A stretch of DNA of 64,000 bases from Candidatus Blochmannia vicinus (GTDB lineage Bacteria; Pseudomonadota; Gammaproteobacteria; Enterobacterales; Enterobacteriaceae): assembly GCF_023586525.1 (NCBI RefSeq), contig NZ_CP097763.1, positions 434,001-498,000 on the forward strand. The letters are read 5' to 3'. A program made the position numbers and the translations under genes. The notes beneath the pieces are model-generated. The model did not search any database. It had not been told where the DNA came from and saw only the letters and a list, made by a program, of their open reading frames with translations. The first letter of the stretch is position 1. Each line of letters starts with the position of its first letter. Shown here in pieces: positions 3,968 to 50,342 of the stretch.

Positions 3968-4864
3968 ATGAAAAAAATATCGTCATCAGAAACTAATTGT
4001 GTATCTGCTTTGTATATAGTTCCAACTCCTATTGGAAATTTAAAAGATATTACATATCGAGCGTTGTCAGTGTTGCGCCAAGTAGATTATATTGCTGTAG
4101 AGGATACGCGCCGTACTCGCATATTATTAAATTTTTTTTCTATTCGTACATCTTTGTATGTATTACATCAATATAATGAATATAAAAAAATACCAATATT
4201 AATTTCAAAATTACAAGCAGGATTAAGTGTTGCTGTAGTTTCTGATGCAGGTACTCCATTAATTAATGACCCAGGATATCGTTTAGTACAATGTTGTCAA
4301 AAACTAAAAATCAAAGTTATCCCGCTTCCTGGTCCATGTGCCGCTATTACTGCATTATGTGGATCTGGATTGCCGACAGATCGGTTTTGTTTCGAAGGAT
4401 TTTTACCCCATAAACACAGGCTACGCATAAACCGCTTACAAGCCTTATTGGAAGAGCCACGCACATTAATTTTTTATGATGTAAAACATCGCATAATGGA
4501 TACTTTAAAAGATATGATTAGTATTTTTGGATTAGAACGTTATGTTGTATTAGCTCGGGAATTAACTAAAATATGGGAATCTATTTACGGAGCTCCTGTA
4601 GGCCAATTATTATCTTGGATACAAAGAGATAGTTCTCGAATTCAAGGAGAAATGGTTTTGGTAGTAGCAGGAAATTGTCTAAAAAATCATGAATTGTCGC
4701 CAAAAATATTTCATGTCATGAACTTGTTGGCATCGGAATTACCTGTAAAAAAAGCTGCAACTTTAGTAGAATATATATATGGAGTAAGAAAAAATATACT
4801 TTATAAAAAATATTTGAGTAAGCGATTAAATAAAATTGTAGATCAAAATATTAATATTGATTAA
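3968..4864 (+). CDS. rsmI: 16S rRNA (cytidine1402-2'-O)-methyltransferase RsmI
   Basis: RsmI uses S-adenosylmethionine to 2'-O-methylate C1402 of 16S rRNA in the decoding centre. Seen: the tetrapyrrole-methylase-type fold signatures VPTPIGNLKDIT (about 18-29), AVEDTRRTR, the glycine-rich SDAGTPLINDPGY, PLPGPCAAITAL and the C-terminal VVLARELTKIWE...GEMVLVV. 298 residues against 286 in E. coli, with slightly longer termini. It is followed 36 bp later by the RNase P RNA on the same strand. Confidence 0.96.
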   Translation: MKKISSSETNCVSALYIVPTPIGNLKDITYRALSVLRQVDYIAVEDTRRTRILLNFFSIRTSLYVLHQYNEYKKIPILISKLQAGLSVAVVSDAGTPLINDPGYRLVQCCQKLKIKVIPLPGPCAAITALCGSGLPTDRFCFEGFLPHKHRLRINRLQALLEEPRTLIFYDVKHRIMDTLKDMISIFGLERYVVLARELTKIWESIYGAPVGQLLSWIQRDSSRIQGEMVLVVAGNCLKNHELSPKIFHVMNLLASELPVKKAATLVEYIYGVRKNILYKKYLSKRLNKIVDQNINID

Positions 4865-4900
4865 TGATATCATTTAAAATAATGGTTATAATATTTCAAG

Positions 4901-5299
4901 GAGTTAGCCAAACAATCGCTGCTTCTTTGTATTTGAAGTAATAAAGATAAAATTGATATAAATACAAATGAAGGGGAGGAAAGTCCGGGCTCCATAGGGC
5001 AAAGTGCCAGGTAATGCCTGGGAGATGCGAATCTACGACAAGTGCAACAGAAAGAAAACCGCCGATAATTATTTTTTATAACGAATAATAATATAGGTAA
5101 GGGTGAAAAGGCGTGGTAAGAGCACACCATATGGGCTGGTAACAGTTCGTATCATGTAAACTCCACTCGGAGCAAGGCTGAATAGAAGTTCTATAGTATG
5201 GTCCGTACTGAACTTGGGTAAGCTGCTTAAGCTGGCATGAGAATGCCAGCGTAGATGAATGATTGTTTAAAACAGAACCCGGCTTAAAGGCTAGCTCTT
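4901..5299 (+). ncRNA. rnpB: RNase P RNA (bacterial type A)
   Basis: Catalytic RNA that removes 5' leaders from pre-tRNAs. Seen: near-verbatim conserved blocks including gaggaaagtccgggctccat (from about 4976), gtgcaacagaaag, gtaagggtgaaaag, ggtaacagttcgt, aaactccac, gagcaaggctgaatag and the 3' segment gatgaatgattg...cagaacccggcttaaagg. The P1 helix closes it: gagttagcc at 4901-4909 pairs with ggctagctc at 5289-5297 with one G-U. About 399 nt, close to the 377 nt of E. coli; variable helices are AU-enriched. The ends are set by P1, so are approximate by a few bases. Confidence 0.96.
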
Positions 5300-8895: not shown

Positions 8896-10641
8896 TTAAC
8901 GTTTTGATAATGTTTGAGTTAATAACCACAACTCTTGACGTTCTTGTGTTGTTAATCCAGATATTCGATCATGAGCAATAAGCATTTCTTGACGTTGTTC
9001 AAGAGTCAAATTATATAATTTAGTTAATGCATCAATAAAAGTGGTTTCTATCATATCATTTGTAATCAAGTGGTTCCAATAGGCTAGTGTTTCAAGTTTT
9101 GAAAAAAATTTATTCTCACGGTAATGCTCTAACAGTTGCGCAGGAGTTGGTGCTGGACATGTCTTGCATATTTTAACCAAATCAGTAAAAATCAAAATCA
9201 TGACATCGTCTTTTTTAAATTGTTTTAATTCTTGTATGTTTGGTACTAGTTTGGCAAGATGTGGATTTTGTATTAATAATCCTATTAATATGTGTTCTAT
9301 TCCATAACTTATACAATATTTTCTTGTTTTGTTAGTAGATAAAATAGGTTTTTTTATAAGTAATTGATTTAGCTTATTTTCATCTAAAATTCCTATTTTA
9401 TTACCTAATTGTTGTAGTAAACACAATTTTAGTGTTTTTCCAGGAATTTTATTAAGCATAGGCAATATTAGGCTGCTTAATTTAACCCGACCCTCCAACG
9501 TTTGTAAATTTATTTTTTGTGATAATGTTTTAAATAGAAAATTTGATAAGTCTTGTTTTTGTGTTAATATTCTCAAAAAATTATTTTTTCCTATTTTACG
9601 TATTAATGTATCTGGATCTTCTCCATGAGGTAGAAATATAAAATTTATTTGTCGATCATCAGTAAGATATGGTAAAACAATGTTTAATGTACGCCATGCA
9701 GCTTTTTTACCAGCATGGTCGCCATCATAACAACAAATAATTTGATTGGTGATGTTATATAATAATCGAATATGATTAGCAGTAGTAGTTCCTAAAGAGG
9801 CGACTGCATAATTAATTCCAAATTGTGTTAATGTAATAACGTCTATATAACCTTCTACTAAAAGTATGTGAGAAGGATTTTTGTGTTGTATGCGTGTTTC
9901 ATATAAACCATATAAATGTTGATTTTTTTTAAAAATTTCGGTATCTGGCGAATTTAAATATTTGGGCATTTTTTTGTGTGTGATAACACGCCCTCCAAAT
10001 GCCACAATTCTTCCTGCTATATCTCGTATAGGGAACATAAGACGATTACGAAATCGATCATATTTATATTTTTTGTTATTACTAATTAACATACCTGATT
10101 GGTCAAGTAGTGTTTGATCATATGATGTAAAACTAAATTTTTGTACTATGTTATCCCATCCAGGTGGAGCAAATCCAATGTTGAAGTCAGCAATAGTTTT
10201 AGCGTTTAATCCACGATTGTGCAAATATTTGTAAGCATATAAATATTTTCTTTGCATTAGTATATTTTGATAGTATTGACTTAATTTATTCATTAACTGA
10301 TATAGATTGGTTTTTTGATGATTATTTTTTTTTAAAATGTCTACATTCAGCTCTAATGATATCCCATTTATAATTGATAGTTCTTTGATAGATTCAAGAA
10401 ATGTAAGTCGGTCATAATTCATCAAAAAATCTATTGCATTCCCATGTGATCCACAACTAAAACAATAATAGAACTGTTTTTCGATATTAACAGTAAATGA
10501 TGGGTGTGTTTCGATATGAAATGGGCAACGAGCCAGAAAATTTTTTCCTTGTTTTTTTAAAGATATGCGTCGACTAATTAACTCAACAATATTAGTACGC
10601 GATATCAATTCATTGATTATTGTACTTGGGATACGGGTAAT
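8896..10641 (-). CDS. dnaG: DNA primase DnaG, apparent ATT start codon
   Basis: Primase makes RNA primers for replication. Seen, numbering from the ATT start: a CHC2 zinc-binding domain with Cys-Pro-Phe-His...Cys-Phe-Ser-Cys (about 39-63), the RNA polymerase domain with GFAPPGW, FGGRV, YLNSPDTEIF, the TOPRIM motifs VEGYID and CCYDGDHAG, and a helicase-binding C-terminus. The first ATG/GTG/TTG in frame (TTG at 10608) would drop eleven conserved residues: upstream codons read TRIPSTIINE, aligning with E. coli GRIPRVFIND. The in-frame stop TAA at 10653-10651 is followed only by GGA GAT ATA ATT. TAAGGAG (10653-10647) sits 5 nt before ATT 10641, giving 581 residues, the E. coli length. Confidence 0.93.
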   Translation of the reverse strand: MTRIPSTIINELISRTNIVELISRRISLKKQGKNFLARCPFHIETHPSFTVNIEKQFYYCFSCGSHGNAIDFLMNYDRLTFLESIKELSIINGISLELNVDILKKNNHQKTNLYQLMNKLSQYYQNILMQRKYLYAYKYLHNRGLNAKTIADFNIGFAPPGWDNIVQKFSFTSYDQTLLDQSGMLISNNKKYKYDRFRNRLMFPIRDIAGRIVAFGGRVITHKKMPKYLNSPDTEIFKKNQHLYGLYETRIQHKNPSHILLVEGYIDVITLTQFGINYAVASLGTTTANHIRLLYNITNQIICCYDGDHAGKKAAWRTLNIVLPYLTDDRQINFIFLPHGEDPDTLIRKIGKNNFLRILTQKQDLSNFLFKTLSQKINLQTLEGRVKLSSLILPMLNKIPGKTLKLCLLQQLGNKIGILDENKLNQLLIKKPILSTNKTRKYCISYGIEHILIGLLIQNPHLAKLVPNIQELKQFKKDDVMILIFTDLVKICKTCPAPTPAQLLEHYRENKFFSKLETLAYWNHLITNDMIETTFIDALTKLYNLTLEQRQEMLIAHDRISGLTTQERQELWLLTQTLSKR

Positions 10642-44415: not shown

Positions 44416-44752
44416 TTTGTATTGTATGTTTTATTTTTATTATCTATATAAATTGATATAGATAATAAGATGTCTGTCGGTATTTAAATTTTAATTTTTA
44501 ATATTATTTAGAAGAGTTGTTATTATAAAATATTAATGATTTTCTAAGAATAACGGAATACTGAGTGTTATGTATTAATTATCAGATGTAATCATATATT
44601 ATAGAAAGTAAATGAATATATATGTATTTATACTGAATAAATATGAAATAAAATAAGGTGTTCCACAAGGATGTTTTGCAAAGAAACTATATTTGTTAAT
44701 ATAATGTTTTATTATTTCACTTAAAAATTTAATATATTCCAGGACTTCATGC
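44416..44752. other. Spacer between cysQ and tamA
   Basis: 337 bp. Holds the hairpin at 44437-44468 and presumably the tamAB promoter; no gene remnant recognised. E. coli has ytfJ, ytfK, ytfL and msrA in this interval. Confidence 0.5.
44437..44468 (+). terminator. 13-bp perfect hairpin downstream of cysQ
   Basis: Arms 44437-44449 and 44456-44468 are exact reverse complements with a 6-nt loop (aaattg), 22 nt after the cysQ stop. No T-run follows, so terminator function is inferred from position only. Confidence 0.45.
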
Positions 44753-46509
44753 ATGTTCAAGGAGCTTAAAAAATATATAGCGATAAGATCATATTTGATA
44801 GTTTATTTCTTCATGCCATTGATTTGTAATAGTAATATTAATATAGTAATAGAAGGATTAGATGGCGAATTAAATTATAACGTACGTGAGAAATTATCTG
44901 ATATTAATACTGATTACAAGTATGTAGATATAGATTTAAAAAAAAAATAGATAGCGCAGTTAGAGCTGGATTACGTCCATTAGGTTATTATAATCCAACG
45001 TTGATTTTTTCTTCATTTAAGCCTTGCGATAAACAATCTGATCTACTAGTCATTAAAATTGAACCTGGGTCTCCAATTATGATTACTGAGGTAAATATTG
45101 TTATTCATGGAGATGGAAGAAAAGATCATGACTATCAGAAAATGGTAAAAGATGGAAAATCTTTTGTTGGAACAAGATTGAAACATAGTGATTATGAAGA
45201 ATTTAAAAATAAACTTTATAATTTAGCTTTATTTAAAGGGTATTTCGATGCTACGTTCCAAAACAGTCAACTTATTGTTATACCTTCACTTTGTCGAAGT
45301 ATTTGGAATATAGATTTCTATAGCGGACAACGTTATTTTTTTGAAAAAATTAAATTTCATGGCAGTCAAATTAAAGAAAGTTATTTAAAAAATATATCTA
45401 ATATACATTCAGGAGAATACTATAATGCAGCGTCTGTTATGGAATTAAATCGCCGACTCTCTTCTACTAATTGGTTTGAATCAATATCAATCTCTTCAGA
45501 GAATACACGTTGTCAGCAAAAAAAACAATTAATATTAGACATCTTTTTTTATCCATGTACTAGAAACAGTTTTGAAACTGGATCTGGTTACAGTATGGAC
45601 ACAGGTCTACGCACTAAAATAATTTGGAAAAAACCGTGGATTAATGCATATGGACACAGTTTAGAAAATAATTTTAGTCTATCTACGTCAGAACAAGTTA
45701 TTGATTTAAGTTATAAGATTCCACTTCTTCGTAACCCATTAGAACAATATTATCTATTACAGGGAGGGTTAATACATGAAGATATACATAATATTCGATC
45801 TAGCATTATAACTATAAATATGGCTCGTTATTGGAATTGCCCCCATAAGTGGCAACGCGCAATTAACGTGCATTGGCATTTTAATCATTATGATAATAAT
45901 CATATTACTAGAAATATAGTATTAATTTATCCAGGAATAAGCGTACATCGCATTCGTAAGCGCGGAGAAGTAATGCCGTATTGGGGAGATAGTCAGCGTT
46001 ATTCAATTAATATATCCAATAATTATTGGAAATCAGATGTTAATTTTGTTGCTGTGCAAGCTCAAAATATTTGGATTCGAACATTATCAAAAAAACATCG
46101 CGTTCTAATTCGTGGGAATTTAAGCTGGATAGATACTAATAATTTCTCATTTATTGATTCAATGTTACGTTTCTTTTCCAGTATGGATAGTGGTATTCGT
46201 GGATATAAATATTTAGATCCTTATGACAACTCTGAATGTTATATAAATGTTGCTGCTAAATTAATTACTACTACAGTTGAATATCAGTATAACATGATTA
46301 GTAAATGGTGGGGAGTTATTTTTATGGATGTAGGAGAGATTACTAATAATATTAAATGGAATAATTTCAGATCTGGTATGGGTATTGGAGTACGCTGGCA
46401 ATTTCCAGTAGGTCTTATAAAATTAGATTTAGCAACTCCATTAATACATAGAGGAAAAGTAAATCATCAGTTTTTATATTTATATGTTAATTTAGGACCA
46501 GATTTATGA
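44753..46509 (+). CDS. tamA: TamA outer-membrane assembly factor, frameshifted at an A10 run
   Basis: Omp85-family barrel that with TamB inserts or transports outer-membrane material. Frame one (44753-44950) encodes a signal peptide and the first POTRA strand (INIVIEGLDGELNYNVREKLS), then stops at TAG after ten A (44938-44947). In the -1 frame translation continues from about 44947 (IDSAVRAGLRPLGYYNPTL, matching E. coli DDAIREGLKALGYYQPT) through three POTRA domains and the barrel to the C-terminal LGPDL. The two parts add to about 585 residues; E. coli 577. No other lesion is seen, and tamB overlaps its stop (ATGA). Either a very recent inactivation, a sequencing error, or a gene rescued by slippage at T-TTA-AAA-AAA-AAA. 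Confidence 0.9.
44938..44947 (+). other. Poly(A)10 slippery tract inside tamA
   Basis: Ten consecutive A precede a TAG in the upstream frame. Eleven A (or eight) would join the two halves. The codons t-tta-aaa also make a classic -1 ribosomal slippery heptamer, and RNA polymerase slippage on such tracts is known in insect endosymbionts. Confidence 0.9.
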
Positions 46510-49500
46510 TTTTTATAAAGAAAATCTATTTGATTTTCTTGTTATGGATATCAATAATATGTGGAGTTTTTATGTTTTTATTAGGTACTAATACTGGAAC
46601 ATATTTAACTCTTACAGGTATCGCTTATTATATCCCCGGGTTAACATTTGATTCTGTTTCCGGTACTTGGGGTAATTTTAATATAACCCATATAGTCTAT
46701 AAAACGCCGATAGGTATAATTGATATTGATCAATGTAACATTTTATTAAATCTAAAATATATATGGAATAAACAGATATATATTGATCATCTTTTTTTAA
46801 AAAATATTTTTATAAAAATAACAAAAGTAGATACTAAAAATCAAGAAAATGAAAAATATAAAAAAATAAAAATAGAAAATATTTTTTCTTTTCCGTTTCC
46901 TATAATACTAAAAAAAGTAATATTGAATAATACTCATATTATTTCAAAAAATATTATTTTTAAATTAAAAACGCTAGATACTGGATTAACATTTCAAGAT
47001 AATTTATTAACGGTTTTACCCGTATGTATCAAAGGAGCAGTTTTAAATGTTTCTAATATAAATATATCAAATATGAAAACTAATATAATAAACATGTATA
47101 AGCATAGTAACCAATGGAATATAAAATGTTTACTTAAATCATTATCTAGTACATTGTCAGTAACATTGTCTTCTTTTAAGATTCCCATAGATTTAGTTCT
47201 AAAAGATGTAAAAGGAGAGAATGTTTATATTTTCGATAATTATCGTAATTATTATACTATTAATCATTTTTGTTTTCGGACATATTTACATGATCAGGCG
47301 GCAAGTTTAAAATTAAATATTAAATTACCATATGGATATTTTAATGCGATAGGAAATGTAATATTTAAGGAATATTATCCAATAAATGTTACAGCTGATT
47401 ATATTGTATATAATATTTCTAGCACCAATAACTCTTCTAATAAGATAAAAAATCAGAATATCAGTAAAATAAAATTAATTCTCACTGGAGAATTATACAA
47501 TGATATATGTCTTCGTTGTGATTTTTTAGGCATTGTTTCTGCAGTACATGTATTATTAAAAATTAATATGATGAAATTTGGTATACCTATAGGCATATCT
47601 GTAGTTGGTAGAAAAATACCGCTTTCTTTTTTAGGAATGGATAATTATTTAATAGAAGATATTAATTTACGTTTAAACGGTGAAATACGAAGTTATTATA
47701 TTCAAGTAATATTACAATTGAGTAGTATCAAATTTTCAGCAGCACATGTAATCGTGAATGCTCACGGGGATACTAACAGTTGTACCGTTTCTAAATTAAA
47801 AGCAACAATGTCAGATGGATATCTTAATATGCAAGGAGTTATTAACTGGACTAATATGATTAGTTGGAACAGTGTATTTTTATTAAATAAAGTTAATTTT
47901 TTTCAAAAATGGTTTAAAAATCCAATTAAATTATCAGGTAATATCGTTACTCAAGGACGTTTATATTCTAATGCTTGGGATATTAGAGTATCTGATTTAA
48001 ATCTTAACGGAAGTGTATCAAATAGTAACATCTCATGTACAGGTGCATTATATAGTAACTCACTCGGTGAGTGGCAAGTCCCGGCATTATTAATAAAATG
48101 GGGAACTAATGCGTTAGAAATACAGGGAGACTTGAAAAAAAATTCTGTTTTAAAAGCTATGCTTTCAGCACCAGATTGCAATATAATCATACCTGGATTA
48201 AGCGGTAGTGTATATGGAAAATTTAAATTGTATGGACCTATTAGATGTCTTAGATTATTATCAAATGTTGATGTATTTTCTCTGAATTGGAAAGAAAAGA
48301 ATCTTAATATTAATAAGATAATGATAAATAGTGATATTTGCCGTGATGATATTACGCAAAGTAACCTTTTTTTACAAGCAGATAAAATACGGTGTAGATT
48401 TTTGTCATTGCGCCAAATAATAATGCAAGGAAAAGGTAATATTAAACAGCATTATTTAAATTTAACAGCCTGTGACGACATGTTGTCTGGGGAAATAAAA
48501 CTTTGCGGAAATCTGGATCTTTTTAATAAAACTTGGCATAGCAGAGTTAACAAAACGAGCATTATGACTCCAATGGGAACATGGAAATTAATGCAAGATA
48601 TTGTTCTCACTTATCAATATTTAACACAAAAAATTATTTTTGATTCACATTACTGGGAAATTATTAATTATACAATTCCTATTTCTAATGGTTTAAAAAC
48701 AAATATTTTAAACAAAATAGATGATTTATTTAAAAGTTTTAATATAGTTTCTTTAAAAATTTTATTTCCAGAATTAATAAATATACATACCGTTCGTATA
48801 TCTTTCTCGAATTGTTATTGGGTAGCAGGAGAACGATTACCTAAGGGTACAATTTTATTTTCAGGAAAACAATGCAATATTCAATCTTCTATGGAAGATA
48901 AAGAAATAAATTCAATTAAAATAAACAAAATCACTGTAAGAATTATATTAATGCAAGCCATTTCATATTGTAAATGGTTCATAAATTTTGGTAATTATGA
49001 TCAAAATTATGGATCGTTCAAAATAACCGAATTACATAATACATCTAAAATAACGGGCAACATACAGATTAAAAATACCTTATTATTTCCTTTTTGTCGT
49101 GCATTAATCTCATTAAAGGAGCCTATAAATGGATTGTTGAATTTGAATATTCATTTTTATGGATATGCGCATCACCTAAAAATTTATGGCTCTGCTCAAC
49201 TACAAAATTTTGATATTAATAAGCCCGATACACCGTTTTTTATAAAAAATGGTCAGCTGTTTATAAGATTTTTTGGGGATCATGCTATATTAAATGGCAC
49301 AATGAATACTGATAACGGAAGTAAGTTAAATTTAAATGGTGATATTGTTAATTTTAATTTTATTCGTAATATGCATGCATTTTTCAGAATATGGGGAAAT
49401 CAAGTTTATTTTTGCATATCTCCAAAAATAAAGATGAAAATCTCTCCTAATATTACTTGTATGCTGACTTCAGAAAAAATTCATTTGAGAGGCAATATAG

Positions 49501-50342
49501 AAATTCCTTGGGCTCATATTGAAGTTAAAGAACGTTCAAAAAATATAGTTAGAGCGTCTTCAGAAGAAATTTTATTAGATGATAATTTTGAACCTATTTT
49601 AGATAAATCTAAAAATTTATGTATTTCTATTTATTCCAATGTTACTGTATCTCTTGGTAATGATGTGAATTTTAACGGATTGGGTTTACGCACGAAATTA
49701 AAGGGTAACTTAGAAATTGGATATAATAGAAATAATTTACTTTTAACAGGGCATATTGATATGCTTTCTGGTTATTTTCAAGTATATGGACAAAATTTGA
49801 TGATAAAAAAGGGACACCTACTGTTTTCTGGATCAATAAACCAACCATATCTTGATATTGAAGCAATTTGTAATCCATCTAATATTAGAAATAGCAATAT
49901 AGTTAGTATACGAATTACTGGTATTTTTGATCAGCCAAAACTAGAAGTTTTTTCTACTTCTTCATTATTTTCTCCACAGGAAATAGTACCTTATTTATTA
50001 GGTGACAATAGAAATTTTATACTTTTTAATACGGATGCAAGTGTAATAACATCTTTTTTAATTGGAGCAAGTGTCAAAAATAGTGAGCAATTTATTAACA
50101 AGATCGGAAAAATATTTGGTGTACAAGATTTAGCATTAAATACTCAAGATATTATCGGAACCACGCCGTTAGTTGCGATCAGTGGATATATCGCTCCCGG
50201 TTTACAAATTAAATATGGAATAAGCATTTTTGATTTATTGACGACAATAACCGTACGTTATTGTTTATGTTCACAATTGTATTTAGAAGCTACATCTGGA
50301 AGTAATCAAGCAATTGACTTGTTATATAAATTTAATTTTTAA
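46506..50342 (+). CDS. tamB: TamB (YtfN) translocation and assembly module protein
   Basis: AsmA-like inner-membrane protein whose long beta-taco spans the periplasm to TamA; implicated in outer-membrane protein assembly and phospholipid transport. Seen: an N-terminal membrane anchor (about 7-27), the conserved TGTYLTLTGIAYYIPGLTFDSVSGTWGNFN, a long low-complexity beta-rich body rich in Asn and Ile, and the DUF490/TamB C-terminal domain (about 1000-1278; LLTGHIDMLSGYFQVYGQNLMIKKG, PYLDIEA, FSPQEIVPYLLG). 1278 residues; E. coli 1259, no frameshift. Starts within the tamA stop. At 3.8 kb it is the largest gene here. Confidence 0.95.
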   Translation: MIFIKKIYLIFLLWISIICGVFMFLLGTNTGTYLTLTGIAYYIPGLTFDSVSGTWGNFNITHIVYKTPIGIIDIDQCNILLNLKYIWNKQIYIDHLFLKNIFIKITKVDTKNQENEKYKKIKIENIFSFPFPIILKKVILNNTHIISKNIIFKLKTLDTGLTFQDNLLTVLPVCIKGAVLNVSNINISNMKTNIINMYKHSNQWNIKCLLKSLSSTLSVTLSSFKIPIDLVLKDVKGENVYIFDNYRNYYTINHFCFRTYLHDQAASLKLNIKLPYGYFNAIGNVIFKEYYPINVTADYIVYNISSTNNSSNKIKNQNISKIKLILTGELYNDICLRCDFLGIVSAVHVLLKINMMKFGIPIGISVVGRKIPLSFLGMDNYLIEDINLRLNGEIRSYYIQVILQLSSIKFSAAHVIVNAHGDTNSCTVSKLKATMSDGYLNMQGVINWTNMISWNSVFLLNKVNFFQKWFKNPIKLSGNIVTQGRLYSNAWDIRVSDLNLNGSVSNSNISCTGALYSNSLGEWQVPALLIKWGTNALEIQGDLKKNSVLKAMLSAPDCNIIIPGLSGSVYGKFKLYGPIRCLRLLSNVDVFSLNWKEKNLNINKIMINSDICRDDITQSNLFLQADKIRCRFLSLRQIIMQGKGNIKQHYLNLTACDDMLSGEIKLCGNLDLFNKTWHSRVNKTSIMTPMGTWKLMQDIVLTYQYLTQKIIFDSHYWEIINYTIPISNGLKTNILNKIDDLFKSFNIVSLKILFPELINIHTVRISFSNCYWVAGERLPKGTILFSGKQCNIQSSMEDKEINSIKINKITVRIILMQAISYCKWFINFGNYDQNYGSFKITELHNTSKITGNIQIKNTLLFPFCRALISLKEPINGLLNLNIHFYGYAHHLKIYGSAQLQNFDINKPDTPFFIKNGQLFIRFFGDHAILNGTMNTDNGSKLNLNGDIVNFNFIRNMHAFFRIWGNQVYFCISPKIKMKISPNITCMLTSEKIHLRGNIEIPWAHIEVKERSKNIVRASSEEILLDDNFEPILDKSKNLCISIYSNVTVSLGNDVNFNGLGLRTKLKGNLEIGYNRNNLLLTGHIDMLSGYFQVYGQNLMIKKGHLLFSGSINQPYLDIEAICNPSNIRNSNIVSIRITGIFDQPKLEVFSTSSLFSPQEIVPYLLGDNRNFILFNTDASVITSFLIGASVKNSEQFINKIGKIFGVQDLALNTQDIIGTTPLVAISGYIAPGLQIKYGISIFDLLTTITVRYCLCSQLYLEATSGSNQAIDLLYKFNF

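Follow-up and report, generated by a model that had tools for sequence, protein, structure and literature searches.

A tamA gene out of frame at a poly(A) tract, in Blochmannia vicinus and in much of its genus, and its likely restoration by RNA polymerase slippage

The stretch of DNA that was analysed, called the window below, comprises 64,000 nucleotides of Candidatus Blochmannia vicinus, a symbiont living within ants (NZ_CP097763.1, positions 434,001 to 498,000), and is part of a single contig of 778501 bases. It contains a gene for outer-membrane assembly, tamA, divided between two reading frames and followed by tamB, Table 1. Direct reading of the sequence showed that the zero frame of tamA runs from the ATG at 44753 to the final codons GAT TTA AAA AAA AAA TAG and that the heptamers T-TTA-AAA and A-AAA-AAA both lie in this frame. 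The lesion is single and consists of one uninterrupted A10, a run of at least nine. Translation of the -1 frame gave 519 codons from 44950 to a TGA at 46507-46509 with no further stop. The first-pass annotation had placed the end of the first frame directly behind the A10, had carried TamA to its end in the -1 frame without a second lesion and had described tamB as intact and overlapping the tamA stop. All of this held on inspection, the A10 (44938-44947) running straight into the TAG (44948-44950), the 519 residues reaching the last position of the TamA profile and tamB starting at 46506 inside an ATGA overlap. The overlap was identical in all nine genomes printed, the window included. The beginning of the gene is more variable; the ATG of the window is ATT in one relative (G004) and absent in another (G005), and an ATG about eight codons further inside, which is ATA in the window, may be the true start in most relatives.

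Table 1. Features of the tamA-tamB locus, in positions of the window.
Feature	Position	Strand	Basis
Putative ribosome-binding site AGGA of tamA	44741..44744	+	Reading by eye, ahead of the tamA ATG
tamA upstream piece (65 aa) in the zero frame up to the TAG, with a hydrophobic start and the first part of POTRA1	44753..44950	+	Sequence reading and translation; weak match to E. coli TamA
Site 1, A10 tract, frame-change point in tamA	44938..44947	+	Sequence reading; relatives compared
tamA zero-frame stop TAG	44948..44950	+	Sequence reading and translation
tamA downstream piece (519 aa) in the -1 frame, with the Omp85 barrel and what remains of the POTRA part	44950..46509	+	Translation; Pfam and NCBIfam; match to 4c00
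Site 2, place of second tamA poly(A) tract; A8 and in frame in the window, split in four relatives	45518..45525	+	Sequence reading; relatives
tamB, intact, ATGA overlap with tamA	46506..50342	+	ORF; NCBIfam profile; relatives

The downstream piece matched positions 56-569 of the 569 in the NCBIfam TamA profile NF047950 with 587.6 bits, which is below the curated cut-off of 625, a value that expects the whole protein. It also gave Pfam POTRA and Omp85 matches and aligned with residues 44-559 of E. coli TamA (4c00). The upstream 65 residues have a hydrophobic start, as read from the translation, and gave no Pfam or NCBIfam family match, though they weakly matched the N-terminal part of E. coli TamA (best E 0.042). 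These two TamA matches, the weak N-terminal one and the one to 4c00 from residue 44, place the junction early in the POTRA part. The identification as tamA, a POTRA part and an Omp85 barrel adjoining tamB, was judged on the downstream piece. The product of tamB scored 897.4 bits against an NCBIfam cut-off of 825.

The frame of tamA was then compared in 14 Blochmannia genomes including that of the window (G000), 13 of which carry the gene. A scan of genome contigs yielded one distant relative only (L031) and this was left out of the analysis. The closest relatives are G009 and G011, with TamA identities to the window of 90% and 89%. The first-pass annotation had asked for tract lengths in relatives, and these showed that both the split and the tract persist across species: of the 13 genomes with tamA, 8 have lost the frame at site 1, more often than chance would allow, and each of these has A9 or A10. 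It reads TTT A10 TAG in G000, G002, G004, G006, G007 and G013, and TTTT A9 TAG in G009, where T-TTA-AAA is not kept. G011 has TTT A9 and is out of frame in the opposite phase. Site 1 is in frame in G005, as TTG A10, and in G001, G003, G008 and G010, which have no long tract there. A second site lies about 190 codons beyond the first and is out of frame in G002 (A11), G005 (A10), G003 (A11) and G010 (A9). It is in frame in G004, G006, G007 and G013 (all A12), in G009 and G011 (both A11), in G000 (A8) and in G001. Altogether, tamA is split at one or both poly(A) sites in 11 of the 13 genomes and only G001 and G008 have a single open frame. G002 is out of frame at both tracts, and a full-length protein would there need two corrections.

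Eleven of the 12 out-of-frame tamA tracts are in one phase, as if one base short, the exception being G011 (phases were derived by hand from coordinates). At site 1 alone the phase is common to seven of the eight split genomes. On a tree of tamB the window genome falls in a clade with G009 and G011. A second clade has G005 branching off, then G004, then G002, then G006, G007 and G013 together; beyond the two clades come G001, then G003 with G010, then G008. The fork joining the two clades has a support of 86/86, under the star threshold of the tool. This tree calls for a minimum of three changes at each of the two sites. For site 1, an early single-base loss reversed in G005 costs as much as two separate losses, three changes either way with that of G011 included. 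The remaining genome, G012, taken as B. obliquus, gave no match to tamA or tamB anywhere in the whole genome, and a 9-kb stretch with cysQ and ppa contained no tamA or tamB remnant at E 0.01. Thus the function is not indispensable. Between cysQ and ppa, G012 has obgE, rpmA, rplU and ispB (named by eye from the ORFs).

Selection on the two pieces was examined as dN/dS by the NG86 method in nine pairs of genomes, both members of each pair being split at site 1. The downstream piece gave 0.15-0.24, the comparison for G002 covering only the 193 codons up to its second split, and the first 62 codons of the upstream piece gave 0.19-0.32. Between G000 and G006, dS was 0.56 and 0.75 for the two pieces. 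In the 62 upstream codons, nonsynonymous changes were rarer than synonymous ones with a one-sided p<0.05 in 9 of 10 pairs, and with the signal peptide removed (36 codons) in only 3 of 10; the pairs share genomes and are not independent. Split lineages therefore show coding constraint on either side of the lesion, and purifying selection acts on both halves of tamA between species that are both split at site 1. For the downstream piece, branch values of dN/dS calculated by hand were about 0.19 for G000 and about 0.21 for G011, showing no rise in G011.

A screen for frame splits was applied to orthologous 64-kb windows of six genomes, each with 46-50 non-overlapping ORFs of at least 90 aa. The sole assigned gene with a frame split in the six windows was tamA; two small unassigned ORFs were flagged besides. 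The screen is blind near gene ends and detects tamA via site 2, site 1 being visible only in a looser screen, in which more short ORFs were flagged, many of them probably not genes. An ORF of 107 aa in G011 (4399-4722) matches 4870-5155 of the window, on the minus strand, and G009 in two frames, and is possibly a decaying gene. In G002, an ORF of 119 aa (10112-10471, minus strand) has its first 35-40 codons matching G009 and G006 in a different frame from the remainder.

Apart from the tract in tamA, the eight coding tracts of at least nine in the window keep their frame in G009, G011 and G006. In 162 ordered comparisons across clades outside tamA (rows 44700-46600 excluded), a run of at least nine was kept in only 26. 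Twelve of the 162 differed in length by a non-multiple of three, at five loci and never in an ORF screened as split, and these are regarded as probable alignment edges. Site 1 of tamA holds at least nine As in all six genomes while none of 16 other coding tract loci does so (reference G000 or G006), which with so few loci gives p 0.059. With a cut-off of eight, picked after the table had been seen, the two tamA sites qualify and so does 1 of the 16 other loci (Fisher p 0.020). The purity of lysine codons was also considered as evidence of a frozen tract and was rejected, the codons being too few, with 1 of 4 AAA triplets kept between G000 and G006; for the 934 AAA codons of G000 aligned to G006, the latter has 635 AAA, 92 AAG and 207 other codons.

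In the whole genome, 41 raw ten-A matches merged into 37 tracts of 10-12, which were classed by ORF layout, homology being used for the five splits only. Thirty-two tracts split no gene and five do, the genes being an L,D-transpeptidase (erfK/ybiS type), hisH, tamA, rluD and ubiH, all in a common phase as determined by hand. The four besides tamA lie at G000:C1:89493, 158800, 605197 and 672083 (L,D-transpeptidase, hisH, rluD and ubiH, respectively) and are split at A10-A12 in the phase of tamA. The hisH gene is split at A11 in the window genome and in 10 of the 14 genomes of the genus, all ten with A11. The histidine gene of an ant symbiont whose corrected transcripts are mentioned below is, we assume, hisH of B. 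pennsylvanicus.

Tamas et al. in 2008 and Wernegreen et al. in 2010 are said to have measured transcript heterogeneity at poly(A) frameshifts in Buchnera and Blochmannia and to have found rescue by transcriptional slippage. The window tamA resembles such genes in having a single indel in a long A tract that has been kept, with coding conserved on either side, and differs in that heterogeneity was measured there and is inferred here. Homopolymer frameshifts in ytfM, the older name of tamA, have been described in B. pennsylvanicus, B. floridanus and B. vafer and may be corrected by slippage; the events in B. pennsylvanicus and in the other two are independent and differ in location (Williams and Wernegreen 2010, PMC3017870). 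The first-pass annotation was thus right that slippage rescue had already been reported for Blochmannia, and frameshifts in this very gene are in print as well. The published cases and ours share the gene, the genus, a single homopolymer indel and an otherwise open frame. The locations also agree with PMC3017870, G006 (taken as B. pennsylvanicus) being split at site 1 like the window and G010 and G003 (taken as B. floridanus and B. vafer) at site 2. The present data differ in covering another species, the opposite-phase relative G011, the changed tract edge of G009 and the doubly split G002. A later survey of six Blochmannia counted 4-8 genes with a frameshift in each genome (Williams and Wernegreen 2015, PMC4389277). 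A review puts the share of corrected transcripts at long poly(A) runs at 12-50%, in cell-wall genes of an aphid symbiont and in the histidine gene of an ant symbiont (PMC5009743). In the Blochmannia and Blochmanniella literature on ytfM or tamA that could be reached, no account was found of the case in the window, of an opposite-phase relative or of the count of 11 in 13.

It is scarcely credible that the split is an error of assembly. Homopolymers are a weak point of some sequencing platforms, but seven further assemblies show the frame lost at site 1, the eight other coding tracts of at least nine in the window keep frame, 32 of the 37 genome tracts of at least ten split no gene, and the published ytfM frameshifts came from separate sequencing projects (PMC3017870). 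A fresh pseudogene is unlikely as well, since the frame is lost at site 1 in 8 of 13 genomes and at one or the other tract in 11 of 13. A young pseudogene in which the conservation predates the split is, in our judgement, very unlikely, even though the function can be lost, as in G012, which lacks both tamA and tamB, and even though selection holds tamA less tightly than the median gene of the window (medians of dN/dS 0.154 for 48 genes and 0.185 for 45 genes). In addition, a 2025 paper on a sister lineage calls fragments of hisH, rluD and ybiS non-functional (PMC12779916). A pseudogene would be expected to show several lesions or a dN/dS near 1, whereas one lesion was found and dN/dS was 0.15-0.32 in pairs with both members split, including the one-state group G004, G006, G007, G013 and G002; this speaks against a young pseudogene. 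So does the lack of a second lesion in 519 codons, and the unsplit tamB is under weaker constraint than tamA (dN 0.058 and dS 0.196 for G000-G009; dN 0.198 and dS 0.546 for G000-G006). Finally, the frame might not be restored at all, the downstream part starting internally and working without the N-terminus, or the two pieces acting separately. An in-frame TTG is available as an internal start, the first listed ORF running from 45001. However, the product would have neither an export signal nor the beginning of POTRA1, and the upstream piece is still selected, making this reading highly improbable.

Programmed -1 ribosomal frameshifting is known from dnaX and insertion sequences. By analogy, the ribosome could shift -1 on A-AAA-AAA just ahead of the TAG, and a plain A10 mRNA would suffice. 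The likeness extends to the A-rich slippery heptamers in the zero frame with the stop immediately after, and a -1 shift would restore the frame at 11 of the 12 out-of-frame tamA tracts and in all five split genes of the genome. The common phase nevertheless says little for the ribosome, since ordinary mutation can remove one A and either route repairs the result. Unlike dnaX and the insertion sequences, tamA gave no sign of a stimulator, the three stretches folded having z values of -0.77, -0.04 and 0.25, thus no downstream structure, and inspection by eye upstream of the tract finding no Shine-Dalgarno-like element; nor does anything suggest that the short product is used. Moreover, the phase of G011 departs from the conserved phase expected of -1 frameshifting and cannot be repaired by a -1 shift, although constraint continues there. 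The slippery sequence proposed by the first-pass annotation is present, both heptamers being in the zero frame, but lacks downstream structure, has lost T-TTA-AAA in G009 and meets the other phase in G011. A ribosomal shift as the source of full-length TamA is rather unlikely.

The opposite phase of G011 with no rise in dN/dS is better accommodated by slippage of either sign than by a -1 ribosomal shift. Given the similar tract, the same genus and the published corrected transcripts, the source of in-frame tamA mRNA with the strongest support is slippage of RNA polymerase. It is thus likely, judging from sequence comparison, that tamA still works, its frame having been lost in the genome at the long poly(A) tract and being restored by RNA polymerase slippage. 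The polymerase would slip on the A10 to give tamA transcripts of mixed length; the in-frame share would encode full-length TamA and the remaining products would end at the TAG after 65 residues. We infer that the frame is restored mainly by transcriptional slippage, and a -1 ribosomal shift on A-AAA-AAA may contribute alongside it. Less TamA would probably be made than from an in-frame gene and, via the ATGA overlap, perhaps less TamB. The earlier suggestion that tamA stays useful despite the split, with slippage as the likely rescue, is upheld by indirect evidence, namely selection on both halves, retention of the tract and the split in hisH.

The observation is sound, and slippage is a likely explanation. 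The kind of effect is known in these bacteria, ytfM poly(A) frameshifts being already in print for three Blochmannia, and the window tamA provides one more example, which is well conserved. To this the present comparison adds the recurrence within the genus, the doubly split G002 and the opposite-phase G011. If the explanation is true, the gene remains useful in a large part of the genus although its genomic copy is broken, and splits such as that of tamA should not be recorded as losses of function, the treatment given to hisH, rluD and ybiS in PMC12779916. The interest comes from the repeated splitting of a single gene and from the natural series that the genomes form, with tamA in frame, short by one base, in the opposite phase, doubly split or deleted. 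The series offers a natural test of polymerase against ribosome and of the reason why the tracts are kept.

As to that reason, a further possibility, which we regard as doubtful, is that the two tamA poly(A) tracts form a frame-blind dosage control holding TamA, and TamB via the ATGA overlap, at a low level. Transcripts would be mixed in length whatever the frame of the genome, and selection would keep the tracts long and the protein intact. As transcript length would always be mixed, the genomic frame would be free to drift. On this reading, such drift would account for the six or more changes of frame at the two sites within one genus, one genome being split twice and one being in the opposite phase.
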